The notes beneath the pieces are model-generated. The model saw only the letters and a program-made list of their open reading frames with translations, was not told where the DNA came from and ran no database searches. A program made the translations under genes and the position numbers. This document shows, piece after piece, positions 4,275 to 24,266 of a DNA stretch of 24,763 nt (within the stretch, counting starts at the first letter, position 1; every line of letters begins with the position of its first letter). The stretch is taken from the IMG/VR virus record IMGVR_UViG_3300042465_006949, positions 1 to 24,763 of that record, one strand, 5' to 3'. The stretch is from a virus.

Positions 4275-4281
4275 TTACACC
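4275..4281 (-). promoter_or_regulatory. GGTGTAA motif upstream of the tape measure gene
   Basis: The minus strand reads GGTGTAA followed by 22 bases to the tape measure ATG. It is the same heptamer as before genes 24250 and 23388 but further from the start, with a purine-rich stretch in between. It lies in the 42-base gap after the preceding gene, so it could serve a separate tape measure transcript. Confidence 0.45.
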
Positions 4282-4294
4282 AAAAGTCTAGTTG

Positions 4295-5266
4295 CTAGCT
4301 CATTAATTCAATCAAATCATCCATATTCATTACTCCGCCTTTTTTGTTGATTTCGTCGGATAAGCTAACGGCTCTCGCATTTGGATCAATTATCTCTAAA
4401 TCTTCTTTCGTAGCGCCGAATACGGCAGACGCTCCTGACGATGTATTAACACTTCCTTTAGAATCCCTACCCTTCTTTCTTTCAATAAAATCAAAAATTG
4501 CTACAGGATCTTTTTTTATTCTTTCGGGTATATCTTCGTGATATTGGAATATGTTGAACAAAATGCGTGAATAAATCGCCAGTTTCAATTGATAAACAGA
4601 AAGCTCGATAATCGGCTTGCCATAAAACGATGCAATATCTTCTGTTTGAGACATATACATATTAAAAAAGTCACGCAAAACAGTATGTTGTATATTAGAC
4701 TCACTTAATCTTTGGCTAATCATATCGTTTTCTTTGACAAAGAATTCAACCTCCTCTTCTGATAGGTTAGCAAATTCTTCATCTGTAAAAAAATGCTTAG
4801 AGCTTTTCGGGTCAGAATAAATCAAATAACGAATAAATTCTTCATTTGATCGTTGCGAGCCATATTTTTCAGATGTTTTGCCGACAAGCTCAGCTTTTTT
4901 CGAATATAAAAAATAAAGATCTTTTTGTTTAGATTCTATCTGTAATTGAATATTTTGTTTTTGAGATGGTAGAAATGAGATTTTTTTTGATTGCTGCAAT
5001 CCATCTAGCTCTTGTTCTAAATCAATAATCTTGCGATCATCATCATCGCTCCATAATCCATCTTCTCGCAAAGAGTCGAGCATTTCCTTCTCTGAAGGGA
5101 TGCCTTTTGATTCTGCGATTGATCTATATTTATTGTAAAATCTATGGATATATCTTTGATCTCGAATAGAAAAATGTTTAATGTATACGGTTTTATCTTG
5201 AAAAGTTACGTCCGTATAGCCATCAAATATTTCCCCAACGATTCCAATATATTCCTCTTCAGTCAC
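4295..5266 (-). CDS. Probable tail assembly protein upstream of tape measure (chaperone-like)
   Basis: This 323-residue mostly helical, acidic protein starts at a GTG only three bases after the stop of the preceding gene and in the same frame as it. I do not recognise a domain. Residues about 70-120 are a charged helical stretch (LEQELDGLQQSKK). The last 60 residues are low-complexity and then acidic (SSGASAVFGATKEDLEIIDP). In siphovirus and myovirus genomes the two reading frames just before the tape measure gene usually encode the tail assembly chaperones that coat it, and position and size fit that role. The first ATG is at about residue 63, so the GTG start is chosen to keep the coding stretch that begins right after the upstream stop. 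Function is inferred from context only. Confidence 0.75.
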   Translation of the reverse strand: MTEEEYIGIVGEIFDGYTDVTFQDKTVYIKHFSIRDQRYIHRFYNKYRSIAESKGIPSEKEMLDSLREDGLWSDDDDRKIIDLEQELDGLQQSKKISFLPSQKQNIQLQIESKQKDLYFLYSKKAELVGKTSEKYGSQRSNEEFIRYLIYSDPKSSKHFFTDEEFANLSEEEVEFFVKENDMISQRLSESNIQHTVLRDFFNMYMSQTEDIASFYGKPIIELSVYQLKLAIYSRILFNIFQYHEDIPERIKKDPVAIFDFIERKKGRDSKGSVNTSSGASAVFGATKEDLEIIDPNARAVSLSDEINKKGGVMNMDDLIELMS

Positions 5267-5269
5267 AAA

Positions 5270-6031
5270 TTAGAGTTCATTTTTTTCGACTCTCTCCATT
5301 AGACCATCGAAAGATTCTTTATCTGAAGCTTGATTGAAAAACCAGAATGCCAAAATTGTAGCGGCTTTCTTTGTAATCAAGAAATAAAGCGAGTCGTCGG
5401 ATTCTTCTTTTTTATAATATTCTTCTAATCTATCCTCAAAGTCACCAACTCCAAAATACGGCTTAGGATACTCGTCTTCACAATTTTGAATATAAGTAAG
5501 CATGATAACATACCACAAAATTAATTTGTTCTGAGCCTTTACATCAGCAGTGTGATCAAACAGTGCTTGATAATTAGATTCTGTTTCAACAATTTTGCGG
5601 CGAACCTCTTGCAATTCGCCAGTCATTTCAGTGACTCTTGCTGCTTGTTTTTCAGTTTTGTTTTGAATGATTTCTAATCTTGCGTATTCTGATTGTAATT
5701 CAAAAATCTTTTTATAGTTATCTATTAGATCTGTAGCATCATCTTCGCTCATAAGACCACCAGTGTCGCTATATTTTTTAGCCAACATCGCTTTAGTGAG
5801 AATGCCTTTTTTAATACATTTGCTCATTTCGACACTAAACTCCAATTCAGCCTCTTCCAATTCTCTGCGAGATGGCTTTTTGAGCTTGATTGCAACAGGC
5901 TCCATTTCCTTGACTTTTTTAGTCACGGTAATTTCTTCTCCTGTTTTTTTGTCTTTTTTAGTTGTCTTGACTTCCTTTTCGACCTCTCTGTCAACAGAGA
6001 AACTATATAATTCTTTAAAACCTTTTTCCAT
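5270..6031 (-). CDS. Probable tail assembly chaperone-type protein
   Basis: This 253-residue charged helical protein has a lysine-rich N-terminus (residues 17-45, KTTKKDKKTGEEITVTKKVK), a coiled-coil-prone middle (about 105-155) and a hydrophobic C-terminal helix pair (LILWYVIMLTYI near 170, ATILAFWFFNQ near 225). Its start is an ATG preceded by AT-rich sequence without Shine-Dalgarno. It ends AAT GAA CTC TAA, and the next gene begins in the same frame after one intervening codon. No domain is recognised; placement two genes before the tape measure suggests the first of a chaperone pair. There is an A-rich stretch near the 3' end (GAA AAA AAT), but a -1 shift there meets a TGA at once, so a lambda G/GT-style frameshift is not supported. 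Confidence 0.75.
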   Translation of the reverse strand: MEKGFKELYSFSVDREVEKEVKTTKKDKKTGEEITVTKKVKEMEPVAIKLKKPSRRELEEAELEFSVEMSKCIKKGILTKAMLAKKYSDTGGLMSEDDATDLIDNYKKIFELQSEYARLEIIQNKTEKQAARVTEMTGELQEVRRKIVETESNYQALFDHTADVKAQNKLILWYVIMLTYIQNCEDEYPKPYFGVGDFEDRLEEYYKKEESDDSLYFLITKKAATILAFWFFNQASDKESFDGLMERVEKNEL

Positions 6032-6036
6032 AATCG

Positions 6037-6324
6037 TTATTTAAATATAAAAGAAACTCGATAGTTTTCCATTTCATCCGCAAAATTTCTTAAAGATTCG
6101 TTGCCGCCATCAAGTATTCTTTTGCGAATCCAATTGAGTTTATTGTTATCGAAGTGATTCGCGGCAGTAATAATCACATGATATTGCTCTGGAATTAGTT
6201 CGTAAAGTTTGTTATAATGAAAGTCGTGATCCGCTTTCATGTCCTCCAAAATTTTTAAATAATTCTTAAACAAATTAGTTACTTCTTTTTTGTTTTGCCG
6301 TAGTAGGTATTGGTTAGCTTCCAT
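6037..6324 (-). CDS. Small hypothetical phage protein
   Basis: A 95-residue protein, predominantly helical and charged, with no recognised domain (motifs such as LFKNYLKILEDMKADHDFHY and NKLNWIRKRIL). It is the first gene of the leftward tail block, six bases before the next gene, and starts 40 bases from the divergent gene at 6365. Its position ahead of the putative chaperones suggests a tail-assembly role, but the sequence does not show one. The start lies after TATTAAATAGATAA, without Shine-Dalgarno or GTGTAA motif. Confidence 0.7.
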   Translation of the reverse strand: MEANQYLLRQNKKEVTNLFKNYLKILEDMKADHDFHYNKLYELIPEQYHVIITAANHFDNNKLNWIRKRILDGGNESLRNFADEMENYRVSFIFK

Positions 6325-6350
6325 TTATCTATTTAATAATAGAAAAAAAA

Positions 6351-6356
6351 GTGTAA
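6351..6356 (+). promoter_or_regulatory. GTGTAA motif at head of the rightward connector/tail block
   Basis: The plus strand reads an A-tract, then GTGTAA, then 8 bases to ATG 6365. The match in sequence and spacing to the minus-strand copies upstream of 9992, 16384, 23388 and 24250 is the best evidence that the motif is functional, since it occurs here on the opposite strand at the first gene of a block. Confidence 0.65.
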
Positions 6357-6364
6357 ATTTCAAT

Positions 6365-6823
6365 ATGCCGAGCTTAATAAATCAAAAAGTCATGGATAAA
6401 GTGATCAGTAAATTCGCTGATCTACATGATACATTTTCCCGCGAAATTACTGTTTATAAAAATGCTAAAAGAGTCGCAATAGCGAGTTCGCCTTCATTTA
6501 ACGCTATTTATGGTAACTCTGGAGCGACAAATACATCTGAATATCAAACAGTTTCCGCAACATTTTCGGCTCGTATTTACTATCTTAAAATGGATGAAGA
6601 ATTTTTTTCAAATTATTCCGCTGAAACTGAATCTCAAAATAAAATCATTATGCCAAATGGTTCTGTTAAAATTGTCGTTGATCCTCAAGGATATTTGTTT
6701 ATCAAAGAAGCTCGCAAAGTTGAATTTGACGGCATTACCTTTTCTATTCGTAGCGATGGCAATCCAATTGGTTTGTTTAGCAATCAATACTATGAATTCT
6801 TTTTAACACCTATTGATGAGTAA
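6365..6823 (+). CDS. Putative head-closure/neck protein
   Basis: A 152-residue protein starting MPSLINQKVM. The frame is open further upstream to 6290, but that extension would run through the divergent promoter region, and ATG 6365 has the GTGTAA motif exactly 8 bases before it. The C-terminal half reads as a beta barrel: a strand with GSVKIVVDP, then GYLFIKEARKVEFDGITF and a final GLFSNQYYEFFLTP. This resembles small head-closure or stopper proteins that cap the connector, and the gene leads a connector-to-tail-tube cluster. Family assignment is from fold impression and position; the gene itself is secure. Confidence 0.8.
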   Translation: MPSLINQKVMDKVISKFADLHDTFSREITVYKNAKRVAIASSPSFNAIYGNSGATNTSEYQTVSATFSARIYYLKMDEEFFSNYSAETESQNKIIMPNGSVKIVVDPQGYLFIKEARKVEFDGITFSIRSDGNPIGLFSNQYYEFFLTPIDE

Positions 6824-6828
6824 TAAAA

Positions 6829-7425
6829 ATGGCTAATGTAATAATTCCACAATCTGTTTTGAAAAAAGCTCGCAAAGACTCTGCAAAGATTTTAAAATTG
6901 CGCGTTTATAACGCTATTCAAAAAGAATTTATGATCATAAAAGAGCAAATGATTCGCGATTTTTTGAATTTACCAGTAACCCAAGAGATTTCGGGGGGAT
7001 CAGACTCACCAAACATTTCTGGGACTTTATCTGGGGACGGCAATCTTTTCGGATTTATAGGTTTTGATAAATCAGATAAACCCATAGAACCTATTTTAGA
7101 TCTTCTAGAATCTTCTTTTATTACTTTTCGAGAAGGCTCTGATTACGTTGCCACAATTACCATACCTTCAGCGGCATCTATTTTTAATGCCACGCCAATG
7201 CCTTGGGCATCTGGTCGTAGCTGGGCAAAAGGTATTGAAAGCGGTATTTCTGGTCTTGGATTCTATATTGGTAAATCTGGAATCGGAAGATCTGACGCTG
7301 GTATACAGTCAACAAAAAAAATCAAGGGCGGTACGTTTAAAAATACCGCCTATATATCTACTTTTATGCAAAAGTATATCAAACAATTTTCTTCTATTAC
7401 ATCATCACAACTTAATATAAAATAA
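6829..7425 (+). CDS. Putative neck or tail-completion protein
   Basis: A 198-residue protein five bases after the preceding gene, ATG preceded by GTAATAAAA. The N-terminus is a basic amphipathic helix (LKKARKDSAKILKLRVYNAIQ), then a Gly/Ser-rich segment (62-75) and a mixed C-terminal half containing ATPMPWASGRSWAKGIE and GLGFYIGKSGIGRSD. Such a helix-plus-barrel layout and the neighbourhood (after a closure-like gene, before a terminator-like gene and the tail tube) fit a minor virion protein of the neck. No specific family is recognised. Confidence 0.75.
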   Translation: MANVIIPQSVLKKARKDSAKILKLRVYNAIQKEFMIIKEQMIRDFLNLPVTQEISGGSDSPNISGTLSGDGNLFGFIGFDKSDKPIEPILDLLESSFITFREGSDYVATITIPSAASIFNATPMPWASGRSWAKGIESGISGLGFYIGKSGIGRSDAGIQSTKKIKGGTFKNTAYISTFMQKYIKQFSSITSSQLNIK

Positions 7426-7426
7426 C

Positions 7427-8275: not shown

Positions 8276-8302
8276 TTTTTTTTTCTCTTTTTTTTATTGT
8301 TG

Positions 8303-8308
8303 ATGTAA
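8303..8308 (+). promoter_or_regulatory. Possible variant (ATGTAA) of the GTGTAA motif before the tail tube gene
   Basis: The 53-base gap contains T-tracts, then TTGATGTAAAG, then 20 bases to ATG 8329. It differs from GTGTAA by one base, and the distance is close to the 22 bases seen for the tape measure gene. It may give this abundant product its own transcript, but one mismatch in AT-rich DNA is weak evidence. Confidence 0.25.
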
Positions 8309-8328
8309 AGAAAGTAAAGATAACACTT

Positions 8329-9441: not shown

Positions 9442-9463
9442 GCTGTCTTAATAACATTAAACT

Positions 9464-9512: not shown

Positions 9513-9992
9513 TTATAGGAAGGTATTATAATCAGCAATGGTTAACACACCGTCCACTTCTAATCCCCCCAACTGTAAAGGCTCAGACTGATACATGTTA
9601 TATTGATGAGCGAGCTTATCAATTTTGATTTCAGATTCTTCCGCCAAAGACTTGTATACTTTTGATACTTCGTTCTTGTTTGTAAAAGTAACGGAGCTAT
9701 TTCCATCGCGTAAGGAGAGAATATCAGAACCGTCTGTATTACCGACTAATCCTTTTAACGCATTGCGAGATTGTTTGCGGTAATAGTTCGACATATACAT
9801 CTCTTTATAAATAGCTTGAGACTCTTGATCTAGCGGAGCATTTGTCCCGCTGTAAGATGTATTGATGCGCGTATTCAACAGTCCCAAATTAGCATCGAGC
9901 CACGCTTCAATATAAGAGCGAGGTACGTTGCCAGTGTCTCCGTCGAATTCTGTTTGAAAAATTTTGGTTGCTAAACCACTTAATGTACTCAT
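9513..9992 (-). CDS. Putative head-tail connector (adaptor) protein
   Basis: A 159-residue helical protein, MSTLSGLATKIFQTEF at the N-terminus. SYIEAWLDANLGLLNTRI (27-44) and IYKEMYMSNYYRKQSRNALKG (62-82) are helices, followed by a short loop with SLRDGNSSVTFTNKNEVSK and a last helix EIKIDKLAHQYNMYQ. A helical bundle with a conserved RDGxxSVT segment is typical of connector/adaptor proteins that bind under the portal. It ends the leftward head block, just before the terminator. It has its own GTGTAA motif 8 bases before the ATG, so it may be transcribed separately from the gene before it. The family call is by resemblance. Confidence 0.65.
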   Translation of the reverse strand: MSTLSGLATKIFQTEFDGDTGNVPRSYIEAWLDANLGLLNTRINTSYSGTNAPLDQESQAIYKEMYMSNYYRKQSRNALKGLVGNTDGSDILSLRDGNSSVTFTNKNEVSKVYKSLAEESEIKIDKLAHQYNMYQSEPLQLGGLEVDGVLTIADYNTFL

Positions 9993-10006: not shown

Positions 10007-10456
10007 TTAGTTATCAAGCAGCTTCAATAATTGTTTGTGCTTAGGATTATTGTGATCAATTACAAACGACTGTACAGCGCTTGGCATAATGTTGCGGCGG
10101 CTATTGCGTGTATAAGCAGTAAACTCTCTAATAAGACTCTTCTTTAGAATTGGTTTTTCGTGATATGGATTAGTTCCAATTTTTGAAGCTAATTTCTGCA
10201 TATCTGATAAAGACATTTCTGCGAGGTTCTGTTCAAAAATTTCCAGTTCATTTGTGCCGAATGGACTAATTTGACTCACTCCCAGCAGCACTTCCAACTC
10301 TCTCATTTTATCAGTGAACTCTGGAGTTCCGACCAAGCCAGAAGCTTTCATTTCTTCGATCTCTTGAATTAGTGTTTTCTTACCAGTATTGGCGATTGAT
10401 TCAGAGATCTCTTCTTGAATCATGCCATTTGCTTCTTCTGTAATTTTTTCATGCAT
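10007..10456 (-). CDS. Hypothetical protein downstream of the capsid gene
   Basis: A 149-residue, largely helical, charged protein (residues 1-60 acidic, with LIQEIEEMKASGLVGTPEF; C-terminal third basic, with KKSLIREFTAYTRNSRRN). No family is recognised. It lies between two terminator hairpins behind the capsid gene and the connector gene. It is therefore probably virion- or assembly-related, expressed at a lower level than the capsid protein. The start ATG 10456 follows CTATAAAGT; there is no Shine-Dalgarno. Confidence 0.7.
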   Translation of the reverse strand: MHEKITEEANGMIQEEISESIANTGKKTLIQEIEEMKASGLVGTPEFTDKMRELEVLLGVSQISPFGTNELEIFEQNLAEMSLSDMQKLASKIGTNPYHEKPILKKSLIREFTAYTRNSRRNIMPSAVQSFVIDHNNPKHKQLLKLLDN

Positions 10457-10489: not shown

Positions 10490-10535
10490 CAAAAAAATAC
10501 CCACCTGGTGCGCATCGTAGAGAGGCGTGGTGGGT
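10490..10535 (-). terminator. Second terminator-like hairpin after the capsid gene
   Basis: On the minus strand ACCCACC (10535-10529) can pair with GGTGGGT (10505-10499) around a 23-base loop and is followed by A then seven T. The loop is long for a simple terminator, so it may hold other structure. It is the second hairpin in tandem with that at 10541-10570. Confidence 0.55.
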
Positions 10536-10578: not shown

Positions 10579-11721
10579 TTAAGAAAGTCCTGAGACAATC
10601 TTGCCAACTAGAGCGCGGGTATCGAGAACCATACGACCTTCTTCGAGCGAGCCGAAGTAGCCGATTTTGTTCTGACGAACGCTGTATTGATCATCGGCGG
10701 TCAGAGAGAACTCCGAACCATTTTCCGAATCGACAGCAACCGCACGAATCAGGGATTCGCGATTACGATCAAGACCAATGATGATCTCTTCGTTAGCACC
10801 ATCGAAGACGGCGGAGTTGCCACCAGCAGCGTTGGTGTATGCAGTCGAACCAGCGACAGTATCAAAGATGCTGTTGAAGCGTTGACCACGACCAAGCTCA
10901 TTGATTTCCATGATAGCCACACCATAAAACTCAGGAATACCTGCGGAGTTATAGATAGCGCTTCTCATGTCTTCAGGAGCGGCAATACCATCGGCAGGGG
11001 AACCACCAGCAGGTGAGCCTTTAGTATTGATTGGGTTGTAAGCCATAGAACGAAGCTCTTGAACAACTTCAGGAGATACGATGATGTCTGTAAGACCACG
11101 ACCTTGACGAGCGTCTGGAGTACCACCAAGCCAAGAAGTGTTAACACGCTTAGCGAGAGTGAATAGCTCATTCAAGTCAGCCAAGAGGAAACGACCATTG
11201 GTATTAGCACGTTGAACGTGTTTTTTGCCATTGGTTTGAGCAGCTGCAAGCGCTCCAAGAAGGAGGTTAGCAGAAGTTTTTTCTTGTTTGAAAAGGATTT
11301 CTTGAGCAAGACGAGTGAAGGTTTTGCTGATTACATCCAAGCGGCTTTTAGCTGCATAGCGCTTATCGAAGCTCAGTGCGGAATCAAGAGTATACGTGTG
11401 GATCTTCATTTCAGAAACAGTAGGAAGTACTTGGTTCTGAGGAAGACCACCAGCAGCGCTTTGGCTATAAACTTCGATATAGTCTTCGGCATTAACATCA
11501 TAATAGAGGTCGAGCGGAATGCTAGGATTGTCATCGGCATTGAATTGCAGAGAGGTGAACAAGTTGCTCAGAGTAGGAGCGTTGTTGATCACTTCAGCCA
11601 ATACAGGACCGATAAACTCAGCGAGTGCAACTTGTGCTTCAGTCGCGATAGCGCGATTTTTAGAAGCCATAGCCTTCACAAGCTCGATTTGTTCTGGAGT
11701 TCTTTTAAGGGTAATTTTCAT
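10579..11721 (-). CDS. Major capsid protein (HK97-fold type)
   Basis: A 380-residue protein. The features and order fit an HK97-like capsid subunit: a helical N-terminal region (1-50), an E-loop-like beta segment (SIPLDLYYDVNAEDYIEVYS, 68-87), a long spine-helix region (ISKTFTRLAQEILFKQEKTSANLLLGALAA, about 131-160) and a P/A-domain section with LTDIIVSPEVVQELRSMAYN and FYGVAIMEINELG. It follows portal, protease/scaffold and decoration genes in canonical order and is followed at once by a strong hairpin terminator. Codon choice is enriched in C-ending and CGT/GGT codons relative to the tape measure and chaperone genes, as for a very highly expressed gene. No N-terminal prohead-protease site could be assigned by eye. 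Confidence 0.88.
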   Translation of the reverse strand: MKITLKRTPEQIELVKAMASKNRAIATEAQVALAEFIGPVLAEVINNAPTLSNLFTSLQFNADDNPSIPLDLYYDVNAEDYIEVYSQSAAGGLPQNQVLPTVSEMKIHTYTLDSALSFDKRYAAKSRLDVISKTFTRLAQEILFKQEKTSANLLLGALAAAQTNGKKHVQRANTNGRFLLADLNELFTLAKRVNTSWLGGTPDARQGRGLTDIIVSPEVVQELRSMAYNPINTKGSPAGGSPADGIAAPEDMRSAIYNSAGIPEFYGVAIMEINELGRGQRFNSIFDTVAGSTAYTNAAGGNSAVFDGANEEIIIGLDRNRESLIRAVAVDSENGSEFSLTADDQYSVRQNKIGYFGSLEEGRMVLDTRALVGKIVSGLS

Positions 11722-13995: not shown

Positions 13996-14391
13996 TTAAT
14001 CTTCTGCTTCTTCCATTTTCTCTTCTTTTTCAGTTTCTTTATTTTCATGAGAAGCTGGATCGGAAGATTTGTCCATTTTTTTAAGAATGGCTTTTTGAAG
14101 AGCTAGTGGAAGTTTTTTTTGCCCTGGTGTCAATTCTCCAGAATCACTTTTTTCCATAAGCATTGATTTCATTTTATCAAATTGCATTGCACAAGCCTTC
14201 ATGGTTGATTGATCATCCATATCTGTAGTATCAATAAGAGCTTTGTCATCTGATGCGCATGTACTCATGAATGATTTATACATTTCAGCTTTCGCATATG
14301 TCATTTTGCCAATGGATACTTGAATTTCTCTGTTTTTAACTTCCACTATTTTTTCAAGTGGCACTTTAACGTCTTCTGGATTAATTTTCAT
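13996..14391 (-). CDS. Small acidic prohead-core-like protein
   Basis: A 131-residue protein whose last 30 residues are an acidic/lysine tail (HENKETEKEEKMEEAED). The middle is methionine-rich and helical (MKACAMQFDKMKSMLMEK). It overlaps the portal stop by 11 bases and precedes the protease-scaffold gene. The same gene position in T4-like phages holds the small charged prohead core proteins (gp67/gp68), so a core role is suggested by position and composition only. Confidence 0.7.
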   Translation of the reverse strand: MKINPEDVKVPLEKIVEVKNREIQVSIGKMTYAKAEMYKSFMSTCASDDKALIDTTDMDDQSTMKACAMQFDKMKSMLMEKSDSGELTPGQKKLPLALQKAILKKMDKSSDPASHENKETEKEEKMEEAED

Positions 14392-16384
14392 TTATTTTTT
14401 GTGAATGGTATAACAATGCTGCGGAATAATCGTCGTCTATATCAAAATCTGCAACTGCTTCTAAAACTTCTGGTAGAATAGATAAAGAAGCGATGTTCTC
14501 AAAGTCTTTTACACAAGAAGATGCGATTTCATCCCAACTTTCTAAATGACTTGAAACAACAACGGTTTCGCACAACTTATTTACCATTTCCTGTTGATTA
14601 TCAGATAGAGTGTCCAGCGACAACGAACTCTTCAAATCTTTTTCGATAGAGGCGTGGAGTTCTTGAATCTTAGTAACAATGCCGCGAATATTTTTCACAG
14701 ATATGTTAGCTTTAGCAAGAGGGATGTCGGTTGTGCCTTCTGGACGACCAGGAACTTTAGGAGTTGTATTGATATTATTAGATTCTTTAGAGCCTTTTGG
14801 TGCTGGCGCTGATATCGTCGGAATACCGCCTACAATTGGATTGTAATAGCCATCTTTTCTTTGCGAAACAAATTCGGGCTGAGATGCTGCAATCTCTTCT
14901 GACTTAGGGAATTCTCCAGTATGAAACATATCCATGCCTTGTTGTGGAGTGATAATACCCAATTCCATTAATCTGGTGGTAACGCGCATAAGCTGTGTTT
15001 TATCTCTGATATCAATGTCTCTAAACTTAACAGTTGGATATTTTTTGAGACCAAGAGCCTTGGCTATTCTTTTAATTTCGGGTTGTAGGAAATCATTCAA
15101 AAACGCATGTCTAGCTTCTTTGAGTCTATCCAAAAAGATTTCCGCTTTAACTTCCGTCGAACTATACTTCTCTTCTCCAACAATAATGTTCTGAAGTCCT
15201 TGTTTAATGTCTTCATTGAGAACTTTATACTTTTCAGGACCAAGAACTTTATTTAAATCAGGAATAACGAAATCAGCTTTTGTGGTATAATCGGAAACGA
15301 GAACTCTACCGACACTTTCGTTTTTAAAGAGCTTCTGCATGGCAATCAAATTATTTGGGTTGATGCCCCCCTTCTCTGGTTCCGCTCCCATTGTAATCAA
15401 TAGAATGACGTTCTCAATGGTACGAGTGATGGCTTGATCCATTTTTTTCAATTCAAGCTTGGCATTAATATCTTCCAATACTGGATAGCCAAATGGAACA
15501 GCAAACGGTTCGTAGTCTTGTTTTTTATAGAAAGCAAAAATAATTTTGTTTGGATCAAGCTTGATTTTTAAGCCGTTTTGATAATAAGCTCCCTTTTGGA
15601 TGTCTTGTCTTACATCTTCTGGAAGACCATTAAAGGTTTCTCTATCTTCATCGGAAACTGGGTTTTGCAAACGAGCTAGCTCATATTCAGAAAGGATTTT
15701 TTCATAAGCTCCTGTTTCGAAGCTGGAACCTCGTTTCGCCACGATATCAAACGGGTTCAATAGAATGTATCTGACGGGTACTTTATTAGAGGTTGGCTGT
15801 TGATCAGCAATTTGCTTAATTAGTTTCGTAAAATCTCCAGCCTGAATTGTGCCATCGACACGATAAAAGAAAATATTGCCACTACGATAAAACTCTCTAA
15901 AGAATTGATCTTTCAAATGCCATAGTTTGATTTTTTTAAACCATTCATTAAAGAAATCGCGACTTTTTTGCGAGCCACCTTCAAGATACAATTCGGTATT
16001 AGCGAACTCTGACATGATGTCGATAGAGTTTCTGAATACAGCTACGTTTGCATAAGCTTTTTGGCAAAGCTCGATTGCTTCGCGCACATTAACGCCGTCC
16101 ATAGCATAACTGTAAGGCAGAAGACCGTTGCGAATGCTGCTGAAGCGATCATGAGTTCTTGAGGTCGCAGCTCTATTTCTACGGCTACCGCTGCGAGAAG
16201 AGCTGTCCACGCGAGAATATTCATCGCTGGCAAAAGAAGTGTTCAACGAGGCTTCTGCAACGTAAAATGGTTCGCCGCACAATTCTGGCTCATATTGTTG
16301 GTGAGCCTGTGACATGATTTTTATTGGTTCTTTTGCAAATTGATTCCAATAATCAGATTTTTTATTATAGTGTCGCTTATCCAT
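14381..16384 (-). CDS. Portal protein
   Basis: A 667-residue portal-type protein, forming the dodecameric ring through which DNA is packaged. The N-terminal 75 residues are polar and serine/arginine-rich. The core begins with YAMDGVNVREAIELCQKAYANV (about 92-113) and continues with FREFYRSGNIFFYRVDG, VPVRYILLNPFDIVAKRGSS and the helical stem (LKKMDQAITRTIENVILLITMG), ending with wing-like MELGIITPQQGMDMFHTGEFP. Portal size is on the large side because of a long C-terminal tail (residues about 515-667) rich in Pro/Gly/Asn and then helical. It is next to the terminase and ahead of protease and capsid genes. Its ATG has the GTGTAA motif exactly 9 bases upstream. Confidence 0.88.
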   Translation of the reverse strand: MDKRHYNKKSDYWNQFAKEPIKIMSQAHQQYEPELCGEPFYVAEASLNTSFASDEYSRVDSSSRSGSRRNRAATSRTHDRFSSIRNGLLPYSYAMDGVNVREAIELCQKAYANVAVFRNSIDIMSEFANTELYLEGGSQKSRDFFNEWFKKIKLWHLKDQFFREFYRSGNIFFYRVDGTIQAGDFTKLIKQIADQQPTSNKVPVRYILLNPFDIVAKRGSSFETGAYEKILSEYELARLQNPVSDEDRETFNGLPEDVRQDIQKGAYYQNGLKIKLDPNKIIFAFYKKQDYEPFAVPFGYPVLEDINAKLELKKMDQAITRTIENVILLITMGAEPEKGGINPNNLIAMQKLFKNESVGRVLVSDYTTKADFVIPDLNKVLGPEKYKVLNEDIKQGLQNIIVGEEKYSSTEVKAEIFLDRLKEARHAFLNDFLQPEIKRIAKALGLKKYPTVKFRDIDIRDKTQLMRVTTRLMELGIITPQQGMDMFHTGEFPKSEEIAASQPEFVSQRKDGYYNPIVGGIPTISAPAPKGSKESNNINTTPKVPGRPEGTTDIPLAKANISVKNIRGIVTKIQELHASIEKDLKSSLSLDTLSDNQQEMVNKLCETVVVSSHLESWDEIASSCVKDFENIASLSILPEVLEAVADFDIDDDYSAALLYHSQKINEN

Positions 16385-16427: not shown

Positions 16428-19400
16428 TCAATCAACAAACATTGGTACGAATGTGGTTTGAGTAGCTGCTTCTGGAGTAGCCATCATATCGAAGTAAATA
16501 TTCATTAACCAGTTGCCCAAAACAAGAGCAGAGTAAGAGTCTTTCCTTGCTTTATCAGCGTTTCTTTGTTTCTTTAGGTTATAGGGTAGATCAAAAGATT
16601 GAGATCCATTGGCAGTGGTTGACACCTGTATCAATGCGCACTGGACTTTTGTAATGTCGATTGTATCTTTCAAATGTTCAATTAAGTCAATTTGTTTCGC
16701 GTAAGAATCTAGTTCTTCATTGTGTTTAGAAAATGTAATTTCATCAATTGGTATTGTCGCTGATTTTTGACGGGAATAATCATCATCAAGTGCAGATGCT
16801 GCAAACCAAATCTTTTTATGATCGAAAGCGGCTTGTAGTATTTCATTAGCATACCTAATCCACTGCGAGCTTGGCTTTCTCAGTATACATATTTTTTTAG
16901 ATTCTAAGTTGTATTGATTTCTGGCTGATCGCAAATCGGCACTGTAATTTTGTGGATCATCAAAATCAGAATCAATACATTGTATGTGGATTCCAGCTTT
17001 CTTAAAAATCTCACTTTCGTTACAAGAGTTGATAAACTGAACGCCACCGTTGTAGTCTCCTACAATCATTTTAATATTGAAATGCGTATAAAGATAGTGG
17101 AAATAAACAATATGCTTTTTCAAGTTTGCACCCGCCATAGCATAAGAATGAACTATTGTTCCTGATTTTTTCTCAGGATTTAATTTAATAATGTGTATCG
17201 CAAAATCATCAGAGCCTTCACTTTCTGACCAAGATGGGTCAAATGCCAAGATGTATTCGCTAGATTTATCGCCGACGACTTCTACCGCTTGCCCCTCTCC
17301 GTCTTGAACGGTGCAGAGAGCCATCTTGCTGACCTTAAAGTAGCCAGAGCTATCATCTGTGAATATAGAGCCAAATTCTCTTTGGAACTGAGCCTCGCTC
17401 ATAGTAGCTTTAGATTGATCCAAAAGGTTTTGATCATAAAGTTGTTTTGGAGCGCAGTCGTAACTCAAGTGCATAATTACTCGATGTGCGTTGTCTTGCT
17501 TAGATGGATTAAGAATCAAGTTTTCATATTGTTGATAAAGCTTATATAAATATTCGAATTTATACGAAGCGGAAGATAATCCTATAATTTTGTTGTGAGA
17601 CCATTTATATCTTTCATCCTCTGTCATTTTACCAGCATCAATCATCTTTGTTTCCAAATCGTACATTTTTTGGCGTTCCGTTGGATTTTCGACAACCGCC
17701 AAGAATGGAAGGATAACCTCGTTGATAATTTTTTCTGGCATCAAAAGAAGTTCGTCAATAATCATTCGTTGGAAACGGAATCCCCGCAATTTCTCTCCAT
17801 CTCCAAGTGGAAGAGCAATAATTTTGCTGCGACCGATCTCCATAACCCACTGGTCATTTGATTTGCTTACCTTCGTAATGCACTGAGATAACAACGCCGA
17901 TTTGGGGCTTTTTGCGATTTCTTCAATCTTGTTGAAGATCATTCTACTTTGACGGAAAGATTTGGATATGATACCGATATAAACCCCTTGATTCAGAATA
18001 GCATCCATAGCGGCGAAAATACCCGTTGTGAAAGACTTCGAGAGTCCCCTTGAATTGTGATGAACAATACCATTTCCGATATAGCATTCTTCGTTTTCTA
18101 CAGTGATATCTACAGATGTTACTTGGCAAGGTGTGATAGTTTTTACTACAGAAAATGATACTTGTTCTTTTTTGATTGAATCAATAATATCTTTGGCATT
18201 GTCCGAAAGACCATTTAGTTTATCAAATTCATTCTGCGATAAGTCGATTCCCCATTCTCCATTTTTTTGACAAATTTGCTTACGAGATCCCTCTGTTTTT
18301 AAGAATTGTCCGAATTTAGGAACCAGTTTGTTTTGATAGTTTCTTTTACTTGATCTATCAATGATCTTTTGAAGATTTTGTTTTTTATGGTAAACGACGA
18401 AGTCAATTTGATCTTGAAATTTTTGCAAGCTGTTAACATCTTTTGCCAATATCAAATCATAATAAGGAACTTCTTTGTGTTGTCCCGAAAATCGTAAATT
18501 AGATTCGATACCCAAGTTGTTTAAAAGCATTTTAATTTGTCGCAACAATTGCAGAGACGTACTCTTTAAGCCTACTTTGCTATTCCTGGGCTGATAAGAT
18601 GCGTATCCATCTGCGTCAAACAATCCGCCAATCAGAGCGCATAAATTTTCTTTTGTTGCGCCAAGTATTTGATCGCATATAATCTTATCTTTTGATTTTA
18701 GGGATTTATCCCAGCCGATTGATTCTAACGCTTTTACCAATTCTCTATTGAAGATCGAGTATTCATAAAAATTCAAGTTGGAGCTTCTTTGGCGAGCGCA
18801 CATTTTAAAATCATTAGCTTTGGTAAATTTTAAAATAGTGTCTTGAATTTCACCGTTCTCCGAGCAGTAATGGACACCACCTTGATTGAGAAATCCGTCG
18901 CCAATTACATAACCAAGCCAATAGAATAAGTGTTGTTTGTTTTTGAAGTTAAAATCTTTAAAAACATCCTCTTGACCCCAAACATCAGTTCCTAGCTTTA
19001 CTGGAACGATATCTCCCTTCTTGATATTTTGTATTTCTTCGAACTGGAATTGAAAGTCTCTAAATATAAGAGTCTTGTGTCCCATTTTTGCTTTGAACGA
19101 ATCTCCAGATTGTAAAGCGATTTCAAGTCCATCTTCCAATGGATTGATGCGCTTATCTGTTACTAAATTAAGTTGCTCGCGAGAACGAACCATTTCGCCT
19201 ACTTGAATATCTTTGATTTTTTTAAAGCCATTGCTCGACAAAACGTATTCATTCTCATCTAAACACCAAATGCCCAAAAAGTAATCAGTCTCCATCATTG
19301 CCTTGATTGCCATATGTTGGAATGGAAACAGTGTGATCCCAGAAATAAGTTCAGAAGTAAAAGATGGATTTTCTTTCAAGAACTTATACAAAAGAATTTT

Positions 19401-19499
19401 AGCCTTGTCTTCCTCAATATAACCTTTTGTTGCTAAGATTTCTTGATTTACATTTTCGAATTTTTTATGTAAAATTTGATGTCCTTTTTCCCAAGCCAT
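16428..19499 (-). CDS. Terminase large subunit (packaging ATPase/nuclease) interrupted by an intein
   Basis: 1023 residues: N-extein 1-78, intein 79-482, C-extein 483-1023; after splicing 619 residues, close to T4 gp17. It is the motor that pumps DNA into the prohead and cuts it. The spliced junction IW/SRGLSKSF is Walker A (a Ser replaces the Gly before Lys). Walker B is RMIIDE (D582, E583), and the coupling motif is near IGLSSASYK (639-647). The RNase-H-like nuclease half has FDPSW (D754), VGDYNG (D815) and RKDSYSAL (D987). It lies directly after the ERCC4-like gene (start two bases after its stop) and before portal. Start ATG 19499 follows ATTAAATAAAT. Confidence 0.95.
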   Translation of the reverse strand: MAWEKGHQILHKKFENVNQEILATKGYIEEDKAKILLYKFLKENPSFTSELISGITLFPFQHMAIKAMMETDYFLGIWCLDENEYVLSSNGFKKIKDIQVGEMVRSREQLNLVTDKRINPLEDGLEIALQSGDSFKAKMGHKTLIFRDFQFQFEEIQNIKKGDIVPVKLGTDVWGQEDVFKDFNFKNKQHLFYWLGYVIGDGFLNQGGVHYCSENGEIQDTILKFTKANDFKMCARQRSSNLNFYEYSIFNRELVKALESIGWDKSLKSKDKIICDQILGATKENLCALIGGLFDADGYASYQPRNSKVGLKSTSLQLLRQIKMLLNNLGIESNLRFSGQHKEVPYYDLILAKDVNSLQKFQDQIDFVVYHKKQNLQKIIDRSSKRNYQNKLVPKFGQFLKTEGSRKQICQKNGEWGIDLSQNEFDKLNGLSDNAKDIIDSIKKEQVSFSVVKTITPCQVTSVDITVENEECYIGNGIVHHNSRGLSKSFTTGIFAAMDAILNQGVYIGIISKSFRQSRMIFNKIEEIAKSPKSALLSQCITKVSKSNDQWVMEIGRSKIIALPLGDGEKLRGFRFQRMIIDELLLMPEKIINEVILPFLAVVENPTERQKMYDLETKMIDAGKMTEDERYKWSHNKIIGLSSASYKFEYLYKLYQQYENLILNPSKQDNAHRVIMHLSYDCAPKQLYDQNLLDQSKATMSEAQFQREFGSIFTDDSSGYFKVSKMALCTVQDGEGQAVEVVGDKSSEYILAFDPSWSESEGSDDFAIHIIKLNPEKKSGTIVHSYAMAGANLKKHIVYFHYLYTHFNIKMIVGDYNGGVQFINSCNESEIFKKAGIHIQCIDSDFDDPQNYSADLRSARNQYNLESKKICILRKPSSQWIRYANEILQAAFDHKKIWFAASALDDDYSRQKSATIPIDEITFSKHNEELDSYAKQIDLIEHLKDTIDITKVQCALIQVSTTANGSQSFDLPYNLKKQRNADKARKDSYSALVLGNWLMNIYFDMMATPEAATQTTFVPMFVD
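18054..19265 (-). mobile_element. Intein with LAGLIDADG homing endonuclease in the terminase large subunit
   Basis: Residues 79-482 (404) form a complete intein. It begins with Cys (CLDENEYVLSSNGFKKIKDI, the usual block A) and has a block B GHKTL with its His. It ends VENEECYIGNGIVHHN just before Ser483, giving the canonical His-Asn/Ser junction. In the conserved block F an E-E-C replaces the usual histidine region, so splicing kinetics may differ. Two LAGLIDADG motifs, WLGYVIGDG (TerL residues 194-202) and IGGLFDADG (290-298), keep both catalytic aspartates (D201, D297), so the endonuclease looks intact. The insertion is exactly at the Walker A motif, a favoured type of site for inteins. Confidence 0.95.
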
Positions 19500-19501
19500 A
19501 T

Positions 19502-20434
19502 TTATTTAATTTCAAAGTAGTTCATTTCTCCAGCGTCCAAGAAATATTGGACATCGACATTCCACATCTTCTCACCAAGCATAAGAAGTTTCGGAGTTAG
19601 TATCTGACTGCTGCTTCTATTTTTTGCAAATACGAATTGACAGCAATCTCTGAAGTCTGTTTGTAGTTCTTTCATATTATGGAAGATATAGTCTAAATTG
19701 AATCGTTTCGGAGCGTATTTGTTAATTTCTCGCATCTTGTGCAAATCGCTTTCAACGACAATAAACAGAAAGCATTCTGATTGTCTGCATCTTTGTAGTT
19801 CGCGCACGAATCTTTTATATTCTGCTGATAAAGTGCTGCAAAAGTCAGCGAATGATTTTCTATCGACGTAAGTATATTGGAAGTTTTCTTTAGTAACTGC
19901 GTAATCACCAACATCTAGTTTTAAAGGTGAAGAGTTTTTGAATTTTAGAGGCTGTTGCTCTCTAGTATCAATCAAAATCTTTACATCTCTATAATCATTA
20001 TGAAATTCTTGTGGTAAATTAGAGCCAAACATCGGTTTTACTCCACATTCTTCACACACTTTCTTGTAGCTACCGAATATTCTTTTGTAGATTCTAATTG
20101 GTGGCAAATCAGATGTGAATAGCTCTGTAGAGCATGGACCATAATCCAAGCCTTTTCTCTCAATGCGTTTTTTAAGCAATAAAATTATATAATTACCGAC
20201 CTCTTTTTGATCTGCGGTATCGCACCATTCTATCAATTGATCGTAAGTGGCGAAGTCTCTCTCGAAGTAATCTTCATATGTTTTGAATTGAATGGCGACA
20301 CCTGTTAATTTATTGAATCGTGGATAATGCTTAACATAATAATCCCCCAACATCATACTATGTTTCTTGATGTGATGGTGTAGGCTTTTTAATGAATCAA
20401 ATGACTCATTGCATTCTTTACAATTAAATGACAT
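19502..20434 (-). CDS. Zinc-finger protein with ERCC4-type nuclease domain
   Basis: A 310-residue protein. Residues 5-25 are a classical C2H2 finger (C5-x2-C8-x12-H21-x3-H25). Residues about 115-137 (IYKRIFGSYKKVCEECGVKP) resemble the short G-S-[YW]-containing repeat often found with homing endonucleases. Residues 150-310 hold an ERCC4/XPF-type nuclease: ILIDTREQQP (154-162), LDVGDYAV (173-180) and YVDRKSFADF (189-198), the signature GD...(E/D)RK...D. Such enzymes cut branched or looped DNA. Being next to the terminase suggests resolving replicated concatemers before packaging, though it could be a free-standing homing or repair nuclease. It overlaps the upstream gene by 11 bases. Domain call strong; role inferred. 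Confidence 0.85.
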   Translation of the reverse strand: MSFNCKECNESFDSLKSLHHHIKKHSMMLGDYYVKHYPRFNKLTGVAIQFKTYEDYFERDFATYDQLIEWCDTADQKEVGNYIILLLKKRIERKGLDYGPCSTELFTSDLPPIRIYKRIFGSYKKVCEECGVKPMFGSNLPQEFHNDYRDVKILIDTREQQPLKFKNSSPLKLDVGDYAVTKENFQYTYVDRKSFADFCSTLSAEYKRFVRELQRCRQSECFLFIVVESDLHKMREINKYAPKRFNLDYIFHNMKELQTDFRDCCQFVFAKNRSSSQILTPKLLMLGEKMWNVDVQYFLDAGEMNYFEIK

Positions 20435-21476
20435 GGTCTTTAGATATGCCGAGTATACGGGCTTTCCACTCCTCCATTCCCTCTAATCTATTAGCTTCTT
20501 CTGAGACTAATTGTTTTTGCATTTCTGCAATTTTGACCATATTATTACGTTCCTCTTCGTCTTGGAAGAATTGAACTAGAGCCAAAATAGAAGCATTTTC
20601 TTTTTGCTTATTCTGCATCCTGGAAGATCTGTCGCCTTGAAGTTTTTTAGTTAAATTTTCAATTCGTGTTTCGCACTGATGGTATTCGGAACTTTTAGCT
20701 TTGATAATCTCCGCGAGTCTCACACTCATTTCCTCCTGATCATTAGCAATATCGAACATATCGTTAAGTTTGTTCAGATGCTTACTAATCACTTCAAGAT
20801 TGATGATTTCTTTACATACGTTCATATAAAGGTTGATTTCATCGGATGTTAAATCTGGTTTATCCCAAGTTAGACGTATAAACTCATGTTCGAACAAATC
20901 CCTATCGTCCTTTACCGTATAATTATTCATAATTTTTACGAAACGTGAGTTATTAAGGTTTACGGTTAACTTATCCACGCAAATCCTGTGCTGGCGATTA
21001 ATCTTCTCTTCCTCAAAAACACTTCCAGTAGCATCGTTGATTTTTTTTACTACCCTACCCGCAGCTTTGGGAGCTACGTAGCTTGACAGCACAGAATCTG
21101 TGTCTTGAGATGGATTGTAGTCTGGATTTATTTCGCGCATGAGGGCAAAAACTGCCCTCTGTTCCATAGACAGTGGTTTGATTTCTTGTTTGGGAAATAA
21201 CAGTTCAGCAACAGCTAGTGAGGATAGACCAGCGTTTGCTTGGTCGATAATAAATTCCTTTTGTTGGGATGTGAAGACAATTCCTTCTTTTTTTTCGCGG
21301 CGAGCAGTATTGAACTTCATACCTGATGTCACCATGTATGATCTAACTTCTCTTCCTTCTTTCGAACGACCATCAAGTTGTGGATTATCAAACACATGTT
21401 TGACAATTTCATTCAAATCAGGATTCTTAGCGAAAGCATCTTGGACTTTCTGTTTCTGTTCTTCAGTTAAGCTCAT
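20424..21476 (-). CDS. Helical protein, candidate small terminase subunit
   Basis: A 350-residue protein without recognised catalytic motifs. The N-terminal 110 residues contain two helix-turn-helix-like stretches (LNEIVKHVFDNPQLDGRS near 21-38; FTSQQKEFIIDQANAGLSSL near 68-87). The middle is mixed, and the C-terminal 100 residues are strongly coiled-coil (IENLTKKLQGDRSSRMQNKQ; MVKIAEMQKQLVSEEANRL). DNA-binding N-terminus plus oligomerising helices and position two genes before the large terminase fit a small terminase subunit, but it is longer than typical. It overlaps the sigma-like gene upstream by four bases. The assignment is a positional guess. Confidence 0.6.
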   Translation of the reverse strand: MSLTEEQKQKVQDAFAKNPDLNEIVKHVFDNPQLDGRSKEGREVRSYMVTSGMKFNTARREKKEGIVFTSQQKEFIIDQANAGLSSLAVAELLFPKQEIKPLSMEQRAVFALMREINPDYNPSQDTDSVLSSYVAPKAAGRVVKKINDATGSVFEEEKINRQHRICVDKLTVNLNNSRFVKIMNNYTVKDDRDLFEHEFIRLTWDKPDLTSDEINLYMNVCKEIINLEVISKHLNKLNDMFDIANDQEEMSVRLAEIIKAKSSEYHQCETRIENLTKKLQGDRSSRMQNKQKENASILALVQFFQDEEERNNMVKIAEMQKQLVSEEANRLEGMEEWKARILGISKDHVI

Positions 21477-22162
21477 AATATGATATCGTTTTTAACAATG
21501 ATGTTTTGCACTTTTTCTTTTAGCATTTTTTTGAGATTTTTAATCTGTTTGTAGCCAGCGGTGCGATTTTTTTCTGAAGTTTTGTATCCCATGTATTTGG
21601 CGACATCGTCTTCTGAAGAATCTTGAAAAAATAACATCATATAAACTTGATAATGTTCACTAGAGAGTTCTTTTTTAAGTATTGCATTCAATTTTTCGAT
21701 TGATGCATCAAAATTAACACCAGAATCAGTAAATAAATCAATCTCTTGCTGATGGTTCTCCATCGCTAGTGGCATCTTTACACCATATCCTTGACGTTTC
21801 GACTTTGCCCACTTTGCATACAGTGAACACGAAGAGTTTTGTTGCCCCGATTGAGTAAGTAAGCATAAGTTATCTCCAAGATTATGTGGGCAAGACATAC
21901 ATGGTTTAACATAGTTCGTATAATTATTGCGTACTATGTTTTTAATTTGGTGAGAAGCTATCCTAGAAACCCAAGGTTCTAATGGTCGCTCTTGATCCCA
22001 CAAGTGCCATTTTTTAAAAATATGAATTTTAACAATTTGCGCTACATCCTCAAAGTCAAACCAGTTGATGGCTTTGAGCCTCCACTTGCCTTGATATTTA
22101 GAAACAACAGTGTCTATAATATGATAGCACTCCTCGTATGTCTTTTTCTTCGGCTCTTCCAC
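21473..22162 (-). CDS. Sigma-70-family (ECF-like) factor with Cys-rich insert, probable phage transcription factor
   Basis: A 229-residue protein. Residues 35-82 read as sigma region 2: FDFEDVAQIVKIHIFKKWHL and PLEPWVSRIASHQIKNIVRN, including the D-x-x-Q segment and W-V-x-R-I-A helix. Residues 88-112 hold CMSCPHNLGDNLC then C112, a likely zinc-binding insert. The last 60 residues (LSSEHYQVYMMLFFQDSSED, then VAKYMGYKTSEKNRTAGYKQ) look like region 4, a helix-turn-helix for promoter recognition. It would redirect host RNA polymerase to phage promoters, and the GTGTAA motif is a possible target. The GTG start (22162) directly abuts the stop of the zinc-ribbon gene. Fold call good; late-promoter role inferred. 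Confidence 0.75.
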   Translation of the reverse strand: MEEPKKKTYEECYHIIDTVVSKYQGKWRLKAINWFDFEDVAQIVKIHIFKKWHLWDQERPLEPWVSRIASHQIKNIVRNNYTNYVKPCMSCPHNLGDNLCLLTQSGQQNSSCSLYAKWAKSKRQGYGVKMPLAMENHQQEIDLFTDSGVNFDASIEKLNAILKKELSSEHYQVYMMLFFQDSSEDDVAKYMGYKTSEKNRTAGYKQIKNLKKMLKEKVQNIIVKNDIIL

Positions 22163-22537
22163 TTATTTTTTATTCTGTTTAAAATCTTCGAGAGAAGTTG
22201 AACGATTTCTTCTAGGCGAGGAACCTCTTGAAGTTTGATTTGATTCGCTACCAATAATAGATCCTAGATCAAAAGTATTGTATTGCGCGGCTGTTTCAAT
22301 ATCGACTTGAATCTTCCTGATTTTGGGAACGCTGTTGACATTAGAAAAAGACTCGCCGTCATCTTCAAAGTAATCTTCGCCTTCTTCGTCATCTTCTATA
22401 TCTTCATCTTCTTTTGCTTGACTAACTTTTTTTAGTTTAGCCATTCCGAATGCACCACCACAAGTGGAACAGAAATTCGGTTTCGCAAAATTATAATCGT
22501 GTTTCTTTCCACACCCAGAACAATAAATAACGCTCAT
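22163..22537 (-). CDS. Small zinc-ribbon protein
   Basis: A 124-residue protein with an N-terminal zinc ribbon C6-x2-C9 ... C23-x2-C26 (YCSGCG; FCSTCGG), followed by an extremely acidic stretch (residues 42-62, EDEDIEDDEEGEDYFEDD) and a Ser/Arg-rich C-terminus. It immediately precedes and is translationally coupled to the sigma-like gene (TAA followed by GTG). A zinc ribbon with acidic linker might bind RNA polymerase or nucleic acid and assist the sigma factor, but there is no direct evidence. Confidence 0.75.
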   Translation of the reverse strand: MSVIYCSGCGKKHDYNFAKPNFCSTCGGAFGMAKLKKVSQAKEDEDIEDDEEGEDYFEDDGESFSNVNSVPKIRKIQVDIETAAQYNTFDLGSIIGSESNQTSRGSSPRRNRSTSLEDFKQNKK

Positions 22538-22656
22538 AATTAATAATGAGTTTTTTTACTGTATTTTCAATAAAAAAATAGGCACGAAGAGACAGGGAAT
22601 ACACCTTTTTTTATGCATTTCGCTGCGAGCGTTGTGTGTAACCCTGCTGTATCTAT
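22538..22656 (-). promoter_or_regulatory. Structured leader and possible promoter between PhoH-like and zinc-ribbon genes
   Basis: This 119-base gap contains an imperfect stem: CAGGG-AA-TACAC (22593-22604) opposite GTGTA-A-CCCTG (22636-22646), with an inner hairpin CGCT-GCG-AGCG (22621-22631). On the minus strand it reads GCATAAAAAAAGGTGTAT, nearly the promoter-like sequence before gene 24250 (GCATAAAAAGGTGTAA); the heptamer is at 22599-22605. A run of seven T on the minus strand lies beyond the stem, so part could be a weak terminator for the PhoH-like gene. Whether it is a promoter, terminator or RNA element cannot be decided by eye. Confidence 0.4.
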
Positions 22657-23388
22657 TTACACATGAAAATCAACTTCTTCTAGCTTTTTGACAATGAATT
22701 TCAAGATTTCGCTGCGAACAATATCTTCTTTGCTGAACATGAATGTTTGAATTCCTTGTTGTTTACTTTCTTGATCATTGAAAGCGTTGAGCATTGGTAT
22801 GAAGCCTGACTTGGCTCTTCCTATATCGCTCTGCATTGGATCGCCACAGATGATAATCTTCGAGCCTTCTCCAATTCTTGTAATCAGAGTAATAAGTTCT
22901 TTGGCTGAAAAGTTTTGCGACTCGTCTGCGACGATAATCTTGTTAGTCCAACTCGCGCCACGTAAAAAGTTGATTGGCACAGCACTGATTCTTCCTACTG
23001 TTTTAAGATGCGCCACATCTTGTGGTGCAACGATTTCCTCCAACTTATCATAGAGTGGCATCAAGAACGGGTCGAACTTTTCTGCGATATCTCCAGGCAA
23101 ACTACCAAGTCCCTTATCAGCGCTTTCAATGATGCTGCGAATGTAAATCAGTTGTTTATCAACGTCTTCAGACATCATTTCGATTGCACCGTAAAGTGCC
23201 ATGTACGTCTTGGAAGTTCCCGCCGCTCCAGATATAAAGATGATTTTGTTTTCGGGGTCGAGTATCATCCCCAGTAACTGCACTTGTTTTGCGGTTAGTC
23301 TGAAGTTCTTTTTCTTTATTTTTATTTTACTGGATTGATTCAAGCGAATTTCAACCGAGTCCGACTGACTAAATCTTTTTTTAGGCAT
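22657..23388 (-). CDS. phoH: PhoH-like P-loop ATPase
   Basis: A 243-residue protein with Walker A GAAGTSKT (54-61) after a KIIFISG strand, Walker B KIIVADESQNF (around 152-162; DE), and the PhoH-family segments RSIIESADKGLGSLPGD, FLRGASW and ICGDPMQSDIGR. It is typical in size for phage PhoH-like proteins, whose biochemical role in infection is not established; nucleic-acid-related ATPase/helicase activity is proposed for the family. The basic first 30 residues may contact nucleic acid. ATG 23388 has the GTGTAA motif 9 bases upstream. It begins after the tail-tube-like gene 23408-24250, so it may be the first gene of a transcript. Confidence 0.88.
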   Translation of the reverse strand: MPKKRFSQSDSVEIRLNQSSKIKIKKKNFRLTAKQVQLLGMILDPENKIIFISGAAGTSKTYMALYGAIEMMSEDVDKQLIYIRSIIESADKGLGSLPGDIAEKFDPFLMPLYDKLEEIVAPQDVAHLKTVGRISAVPINFLRGASWTNKIIVADESQNFSAKELITLITRIGEGSKIIICGDPMQSDIGRAKSGFIPMLNAFNDQESKQQGIQTFMFSKEDIVRSEILKFIVKKLEEVDFHV

Positions 23389-23397
23389 TTGTATAGT

Positions 23398-23404
23398 TTA
23401 CACC
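23398..23404 (-). promoter_or_regulatory. GGTGTAA motif upstream of the PhoH-like gene
   Basis: The minus strand reads TATAAATAGGTGTAA, nine bases (ACTATACAA), then ATG 23388. TATAAATA alone is identical to the T4 late promoter core; here it directly abuts GGTGTAA and includes the stop codon of the preceding gene. Confidence 0.65.
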
Positions 23405-23407
23405 TAT

Positions 23408-24250
23408 TTATACCAATGCTTCGTCAATAGTCACATCTGCCATCAAAATATTTGGTGGTGACACTGTGAGGTTTTGGGCAGTCAGTCTTCCGCGAGAAGA
23501 AACGGACAATGTTCCTGAAGGCAAAACGTATTCGCCAGATTCGTTTTTTAAATCAACAGAAAAAGAAGAACTTGCTCCAGACTCATTAATGAATGTTTTT
23601 ATGTTTGTTGCTTTGATTTGTAGCTGCTTTGTTGCTTCGTCCAAAAAGACGATGTTGGCGTTGCGCTTTGAGATACCATAAGAATAGGTTCTTTTTAAAT
23701 CAAGAGAGAAGGAAATGCTGGAGTGAATGTCATCTGAATAATTATCTGCCCCCGAAAGTACTGCAAAATGACCGTACGCGAATTTGTTTGTCATACCAGT
23801 TTCTCCTGTAGCTAGCCCCGAAATCATTGCCAAACCTGTGGGTGCATCGGTGCAAGTAAAGGATGTTGACATTGTCGCGGCTTGAAACGGCGCGATTTCT
23901 ATAGACAAACTGTCGAGATAACATCCACTAAACGTTCTCCCCCCGATTGTAAGATCTGTATTGCCTGTGCCTGTAAGATTCGCGAAAATGCCAGATCCGA
24001 AATTGTATGAATCAAGAGAAACATCGTCGCCGCCGAACTTATTACACAGTGGGAACGATAAGGTAATCTTGGTGTCTGTATTGCCAGCGACTCTCATTTC
24101 TGGAAAAGTATTTGGGGCAAGAGTTCTTTGACTGTTTAATTTCGCGCTGTGAGCTATCGAGACGCTGCTTGCAGGTGCGATGTAGCGTTTGCCTACAACA
24201 TCAAGTCGAGGCATAGAGACTGGTACATTTTCGTAGCGTAATACTGGCAT
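23408..24250 (-). CDS. Second tail-tube-like virion protein
   Basis: A 280-residue beta-rich protein, starting MPVLRYENVPVSMPRLDVVG. Its pattern parallels the tail tube protein at 8329-9441: a strand pair GCYLDSLSIEIAPFQAATMS (109-128) against YLTDYSIELAVGSIPTATVS there, and a later strand with SLDLKRTYSYGISKRNAN against LSLPLGRTPIERLGSKFA. So two divergent tail-tube-fold proteins are encoded, 90 residues different in length. This one might form the tail tip or baseplate tube rather than the main tube. The ATG at 24250 has the GGTGTAA motif 9 bases upstream and is the first gene of the leftward block. Fold by resemblance only. Confidence 0.65.
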   Translation of the reverse strand: MPVLRYENVPVSMPRLDVVGKRYIAPASSVSIAHSAKLNSQRTLAPNTFPEMRVAGNTDTKITLSFPLCNKFGGDDVSLDSYNFGSGIFANLTGTGNTDLTIGGRTFSGCYLDSLSIEIAPFQAATMSTSFTCTDAPTGLAMISGLATGETGMTNKFAYGHFAVLSGADNYSDDIHSSISFSLDLKRTYSYGISKRNANIVFLDEATKQLQIKATNIKTFINESGASSSFSVDLKNESGEYVLPSGTLSVSSRGRLTAQNLTVSPPNILMADVTIDEALV

Positions 24251-24259
24251 CGTAAGATA

Positions 24260-24266
24260 TTACACC
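24260..24266 (-). promoter_or_regulatory. GGTGTAA motif at head of the leftward block
   Basis: The minus strand reads GCATAAAAAGGTGTAA, nine bases (TATCTTACG), then ATG 24250. Sequence and spacing are identical in type to sites before 23388 and 16384, and the upstream GCATAAAAA is shared with the site at 22599-22605. Confidence 0.65.

Follow-up and report, generated by a model that had tools for sequence, protein, structure and literature searches.

The best-described relatives of the arrangement reported here are the T4-type late promoters, which consist of the element TATAAATA and are read by the sigma factor gp55 with gp33 and gp45. A cellular counterpart is known from Deinococcus-Thermus, in which a -10 motif of the housekeeping RpoD located directly before ORFs was shown by reporters to be a promoter producing leaderless mRNA (PMC12340547). 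For the phage AR9, leaders of 26–491 nt have been reported (PMC5312081), and a passage of the same paper, citing Brock 2008, states that phage messages are often leaderless. We have analyzed a window of 24,763 nt, i.e., positions 1 to 24,763 of record IMGVR_UViG_3300042465_006949, which derives from an uncultured tailed phage, encodes a tape-measure protein, a terminase, PhoH and a sigma factor, and lacks close relatives among the phage records searched. On the basis of its sequence and that of its relatives, the hexamer GTGTAA is probably a -10-type late promoter, likely read by a phage sigma factor, from which transcription would start 8–10 nt downstream and produce mostly leaderless messages.

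In common with the T4 late system, there is a single strict -10-type element with no conserved -35 element, and a protein of the sigma-70 family is encoded by the phage itself, as in the case of gp55; the host core polymerase would be used here too. The two systems differ in that the element is GTGTAA and most ATGs lie 8–10 nt after it without a Shine-Dalgarno (SD) sequence, and in that the sigma factor, unlike the gp55 system, combines a conserved Cys4 segment with a C-terminus that resembles region 4. Since its sequence departs from TATAAATA, the element falls outside the T4 late promoters as strictly defined. When the same scan was applied to T4, its late promoters were located 14–28 nt before ATG, with an SD in 10 of 11 cases; the long-gap class described below (18–32 nt, with SD) thus has the T4 layout, and the short-gap class lacks a leader. 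With the Deinococcus-Thermus case the locus shares, as far as sequence can indicate, a -10 element adjacent to the start codon and hence a leaderless placement, but a cellular housekeeping motif is replaced here by a phage-specific late hexamer whose presumed reader is a phage sigma factor, and an SD class is additionally present (PMC12340547). The AR9 leaders contrast with the short-gap genes here (PMC5312081).

Table 1. Features of the window discussed in the text, with coordinates on the 24,763-nt record.
Feature	Position	Strand	Remarks
GTGTAA	24260..24265	-	9 nt upstream of the ATG of gene 23408-24250, whose product weakly resembles Pfam Phage_tube_2; spacing kept in relatives
GTGTAA	23398..23403	-	9 nt before ATG of phoH (22657-23388); GTGTAA/GTGTAT in orthologs
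GTGTAA	16394..16399	-	9 nt before ATG of 14381-16384; GTGTAA or GTGTAT in orthologs
GTGTAA	10001..10006	-	8 nt before ATG of gene 9513-9992
GTGTAA	6351..6356	+	8 nt before ATG at 6365 (gene 6365-6823)
GTGTAA	4275..4280	-	22 nt upstream of the tape-measure ATG (4252); class with long leader
SD AAGGA	4256..4260	-	between GTGTAA and tape-measure ATG
GTGTAA	22657..22662	-	includes phoH stop codon; 9 nt before structured leader RNA
ATGTAA	8303..8308	+	20 nt upstream of ATG 8329; probably a weak form of the element
Structured RNA	22592..22647	-	conserved, covarying outer stem; leader of zinc-ribbon/sigma genes
Putative zinc-ribbon protein	22163..22537	-	small; directly upstream of sigma gene; weak Pfam matches
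Phage sigma factor	21473..22162	-	229 aa; contains sigma region 2, a conserved Cys4 segment and a C-terminus resembling region 4
Terminase large subunit	16428..19499	-	intein at Walker A region
ERCC4 nuclease-domain protein	19502..20434	-	adjoins terminase
abiF RNA (RF03085)	10499..10534	-	between genes 10579-11721 and 10007-10456

The initial annotation had pointed out five GTGTAA copies 8 or 9 bases before the ATGs at 24250, 23388, 16384, 9992 and 6365 and a sixth before the tape-measure gene, and all of these were located (Table 1), the sixth with an SD in its gap. The tape-measure genes of relatives likewise carry GTGTAA 21–26 nt before ATG together with an SD, and the product of 14381-16384, a 667-aa protein, adjoins the terminase and occupies the portal position. 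The view that the marked genes lead gene blocks holds for part of them; those starting at 23388 and 9992 trail a co-directional gene by 15–20 nt, showing that some copies lie inside co-directional runs. Two near-variants noted earlier have turned out differently: ATGTAA at 8303-8308 is probably a weaker real site, because [A/C]TGTAA is conserved in orthologs, and GGTGTAT at 22599-22605 was rejected as a promoter, since it belongs to a conserved RNA hairpin, of which it forms the 3' arm.

The hexamer itself occurs 11 times in the window versus 9.0 expected and is thus not enriched, a point that would suit the view that its placement is a coincidence in an AT-rich genome. Its spacing to start codons, however, is far beyond chance, as the initial annotation had argued: GTGTAAN{5,12}ATG was found 5 times versus 1.19 expected, a count reached in 0 of 100 shuffles, and 5 of the 22 gene starts have the hexamer at a gap of 8–10 nt, for which dinucleotide shuffling gave a mean of 0.012 and 0 of 2000 shuffles reached 5. 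The genome-wide scan suggested in that annotation gave the same enrichment at gap 8–10 in three large relatives, with sites at 16 of the 185 genes of G001, 14 of the 139 of G002 and 8 of the 102 of G003; the shuffle means stayed below 0.1, and none of the 500 shuffles of each genome reached the observed count. Since the hexamer was also found within a gap of 7–12 nt in 37 unrelated gene families of uncultured relatives, we regard the probability of coincidence as negligible.

For this wider comparison, about 150 loci were collected from viral contigs by terminase and sigma searches, eight of the larger contigs being read at full length, and gene starts were taken from a simple ORF caller. The clade includes freshwater and marine phages, with contigs of up to about 205 kb, and the pooled set comprises 1768 distinct genes in 662 families; because the sequences are related, raw site counts overstate independence, and family-weighted counts are therefore given as well. 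In the relatives, GTGTAA upstream of ATG was the top hexamer-position signal, with 63, 66 and 36 sites at gaps of 8, 9 and 10 nt, respectively. The sequence is strict, 161 sites being exact and any one-mismatch variant accounting for at most 5, with A/T-rich flanks and no conserved -35 element upstream of the sites.

The distance from GTGTAA to ATG is bimodal, being either 8–10 nt without an SD or about 18–27 nt with one. In the group resembling the window, an SD-like tetramer was present in the leader of 1 of 149 genes at gap 8–10, versus an SD in 24 of 31 genes at gap 18–27. Overall, SD frequency is 70–81% in the long-gap class and 10% in genes without GTGTAA, the latter equal to the shuffled level. 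The split recurs in the A7 clades with a gap of 23–32 nt (SD in 85–88% for the closer set, with a weaker signal for the other), and in the A6 clades long-gap sites are few, with one recurrent site at a gap of 28–32 nt without an SD. For the short-gap genes, the spacing of the element would place the +1 at the start codon where the SD is absent, and a leader of 0–3 nt is likely.

An independent hint as to the transcription start comes from the GTGTAA that heads a structured leader of roughly 120 nt between phoH and the zinc-ribbon/sigma genes. The conserved RNA in this leader has the core CACAACGC[A/T]CGCAGCG..ATGC, shows double-sided (compensatory) changes in 5 of 13 predicted pairs and has no match in Rfam. 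Its stem starts 8–10 nt after GTGTAA in all 17 aligned sequences, i.e., at the distance of ATG in the short-gap genes. Transcription starting at the base of a stem is common for structured leaders, and if this holds here, the short-gap genes would be leaderless or nearly so. Separately, the RNA itself may have a regulatory role in the sigma operon.

The two spacing classes, the stem position and the strictness of the hexamer without a -35 element argue for a -10-type element and against a ribosome-binding signal, and they support the earlier proposal of a -10-like element with leaders of 1–3 nt. A translation signal, either an SD substitute or a protein-bound leader element before the start codon, would account for a hexamer occupying positions -16 to -9 relative to ATG, close to the usual place of ribosome signals, in phages that use almost no SD. 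It would not account for hexamers separated from ATG by 18–32 nt that include a normal SD, or heading a long structured leader, nor for the marking of a subset of genes only, rarely those less than 20 nt behind a co-directional gene; furthermore, the early genes carry sigma-70 hexamers at leaderless spacing. The ribosome-binding version was discarded on the basis of the spacing classes and the RNA-stem calibration, and a translational role in general appears very improbable. Under the promoter reading, GTGTAA would serve a large clade of uncultured tailed phages as the -10-type core of their late (or middle/late) promoters, most likely directing host RNA polymerase carrying the phage sigma factor to start about 8–10 nt downstream of the hexamer. 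In most late genes the ATG would coincide with this start point, giving a leaderless message or a leader of 0–3 nt, and in a minority, including the tape measure, the ATG would follow the hexamer by 18–32 nt with an SD filling the gap.

The likeliest predicted reader of GTGTA(A/T/C) is the phage sigma factor of Table 1. Pfam Sigma70_r2 was matched by all 20 aligned homologs, and PHROG_1740, a family of phage sigma factors, by 15 of the 20, these latter matches being partial and weak and the Cys4 segment (C88/C91/C100/C112, conserved between region 2 and the region-4-like tail) being additional here; a PDB profile search with the protein matched no sigma factor. At orthologous genes in other clades with this sigma family, the element reads GTGTA(A/T/C). 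TATAAT is enriched in the most divergent clade, and a shift of the element to TATAAT was considered there and rejected for the late orthologs, which keep GTGTAA (GTGTAATATAAT). It is also conceivable that the same near-leaderless promoter is read by a host alternative sigma factor or a phage-modified host polymerase: the assignment to the phage sigma is a prediction from co-occurrence, every locus having been obtained via sigma or the adjoining terminase, and region 4 is weakly detected in the homologs. Against this, the sigma gene is conserved in hundreds of contigs and lies in the same late cluster in relatives, and no RpoB-family polymerase was found in 13 large relatives with positive controls; a search for T7-type polymerase gave no match, its positive control being unmatched too. 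Moreover, early genes with ordinary sigma-70 signals imply that a second specificity is needed, and the sigma gene supplies one. We therefore consider another reader unlikely and prefer the phage sigma factor.

These ordinary signals were found in the genes without GTGTAA, where TTGACA occurs 42 times versus 8.7 expected, starting 34–38 nt before ATG with a peak at 37–38 nt (37 genes versus a mean of 1.7 per position), and is usually followed by TAnnnT at a 17-nt spacing; the signal is weaker in marine clades, with the spacing unchanged. This spacing predicts that early messages, too, start at ATG or close to it; early genes would be expressed from host-type TTGACA-N17-TAnnnT promoters. The Bacteroidota-type promoter TAnnTTTG was tried too and is unenriched (13 versus 16.5 expected). 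Gene content separates the two sets: in G001, the genes behind GTGTAA include those for proteins of the virion and minor tail, PhoH, a protease and ribonucleotide reductase, and those behind TTGACA, which lie mainly in 33–73 kb, include rIIA, rIIB and a DnaB-like helicase gene. The timing is deduced from this content, i.e., GTGTAA mostly for late/structural genes and host-type promoters for early ones, and the reductase and ferredoxin genes could be middle genes. A broader proposal, which we offer tentatively and at somewhat less than even confidence, is that leaderless messages organize the transcription of the whole clade, early and late, SD leaders being reserved for selected late genes such as the tape measure and spacing from promoter to ATG selecting the translation mode. 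A repeated hairpin-like element near GTCATAAGTCGTTGAYAYTCAACGA was also observed downstream of several TTGACA boxes in L152-L153 (G001 59–73 kb).

In the literature searched, which was covered in part, we found no published GTGTAA phage promoter, nor any phage whose late regulon is systematically leaderless. Such a design is rarely described for phage late genes, and the systematic near-leaderless placement is a notable feature of this clade. A late-promoter definition for a large uncultured phage lineage can promote the annotation of its late genes, and pairs a promoter word with a candidate sigma factor in a manner open to direct test. The clade would also be a natural example of a single promoter word serving two translation modes by spacing alone.

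Several observations on the host and on neighboring features are added. Contig matches were found in MAGs of unrelated taxa, among them Flavobacteriaceae, Halobacteriovorax and Verrucomicrobiales, which were rejected as hosts because the phage tmRNA tags mismatch those MAGs; the count of leaderless patterns did not discriminate among them, and a freshwater actinobacterial host (TAnnnT, leaderless habit) was considered and not established. Relatives have tmRNA genes of their own, which specify unusual tags (L157:7863-8241 on the minus strand and L383-L386; tags GNNKIVSFRKPNYSSKTVAFAA, AKNINSVESFSQEGLALAA and others). The terminase intein is about 400 aa long, starting with CLDENEYVL and ending at VHHN|S; many relatives have a 619-aa terminase without an intein, and L047 appears to have two. 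The adjoining ERCC4 protein has a weak N-terminal C2H2 zinc finger. Finally, the abiF RNA scored 44.8 bits, above the gathering score of Rfam, and might also serve as a terminator or affect an AbiF system of the host; an abiF RNA in a cyanophage is mentioned in a passage of PMC9964418.
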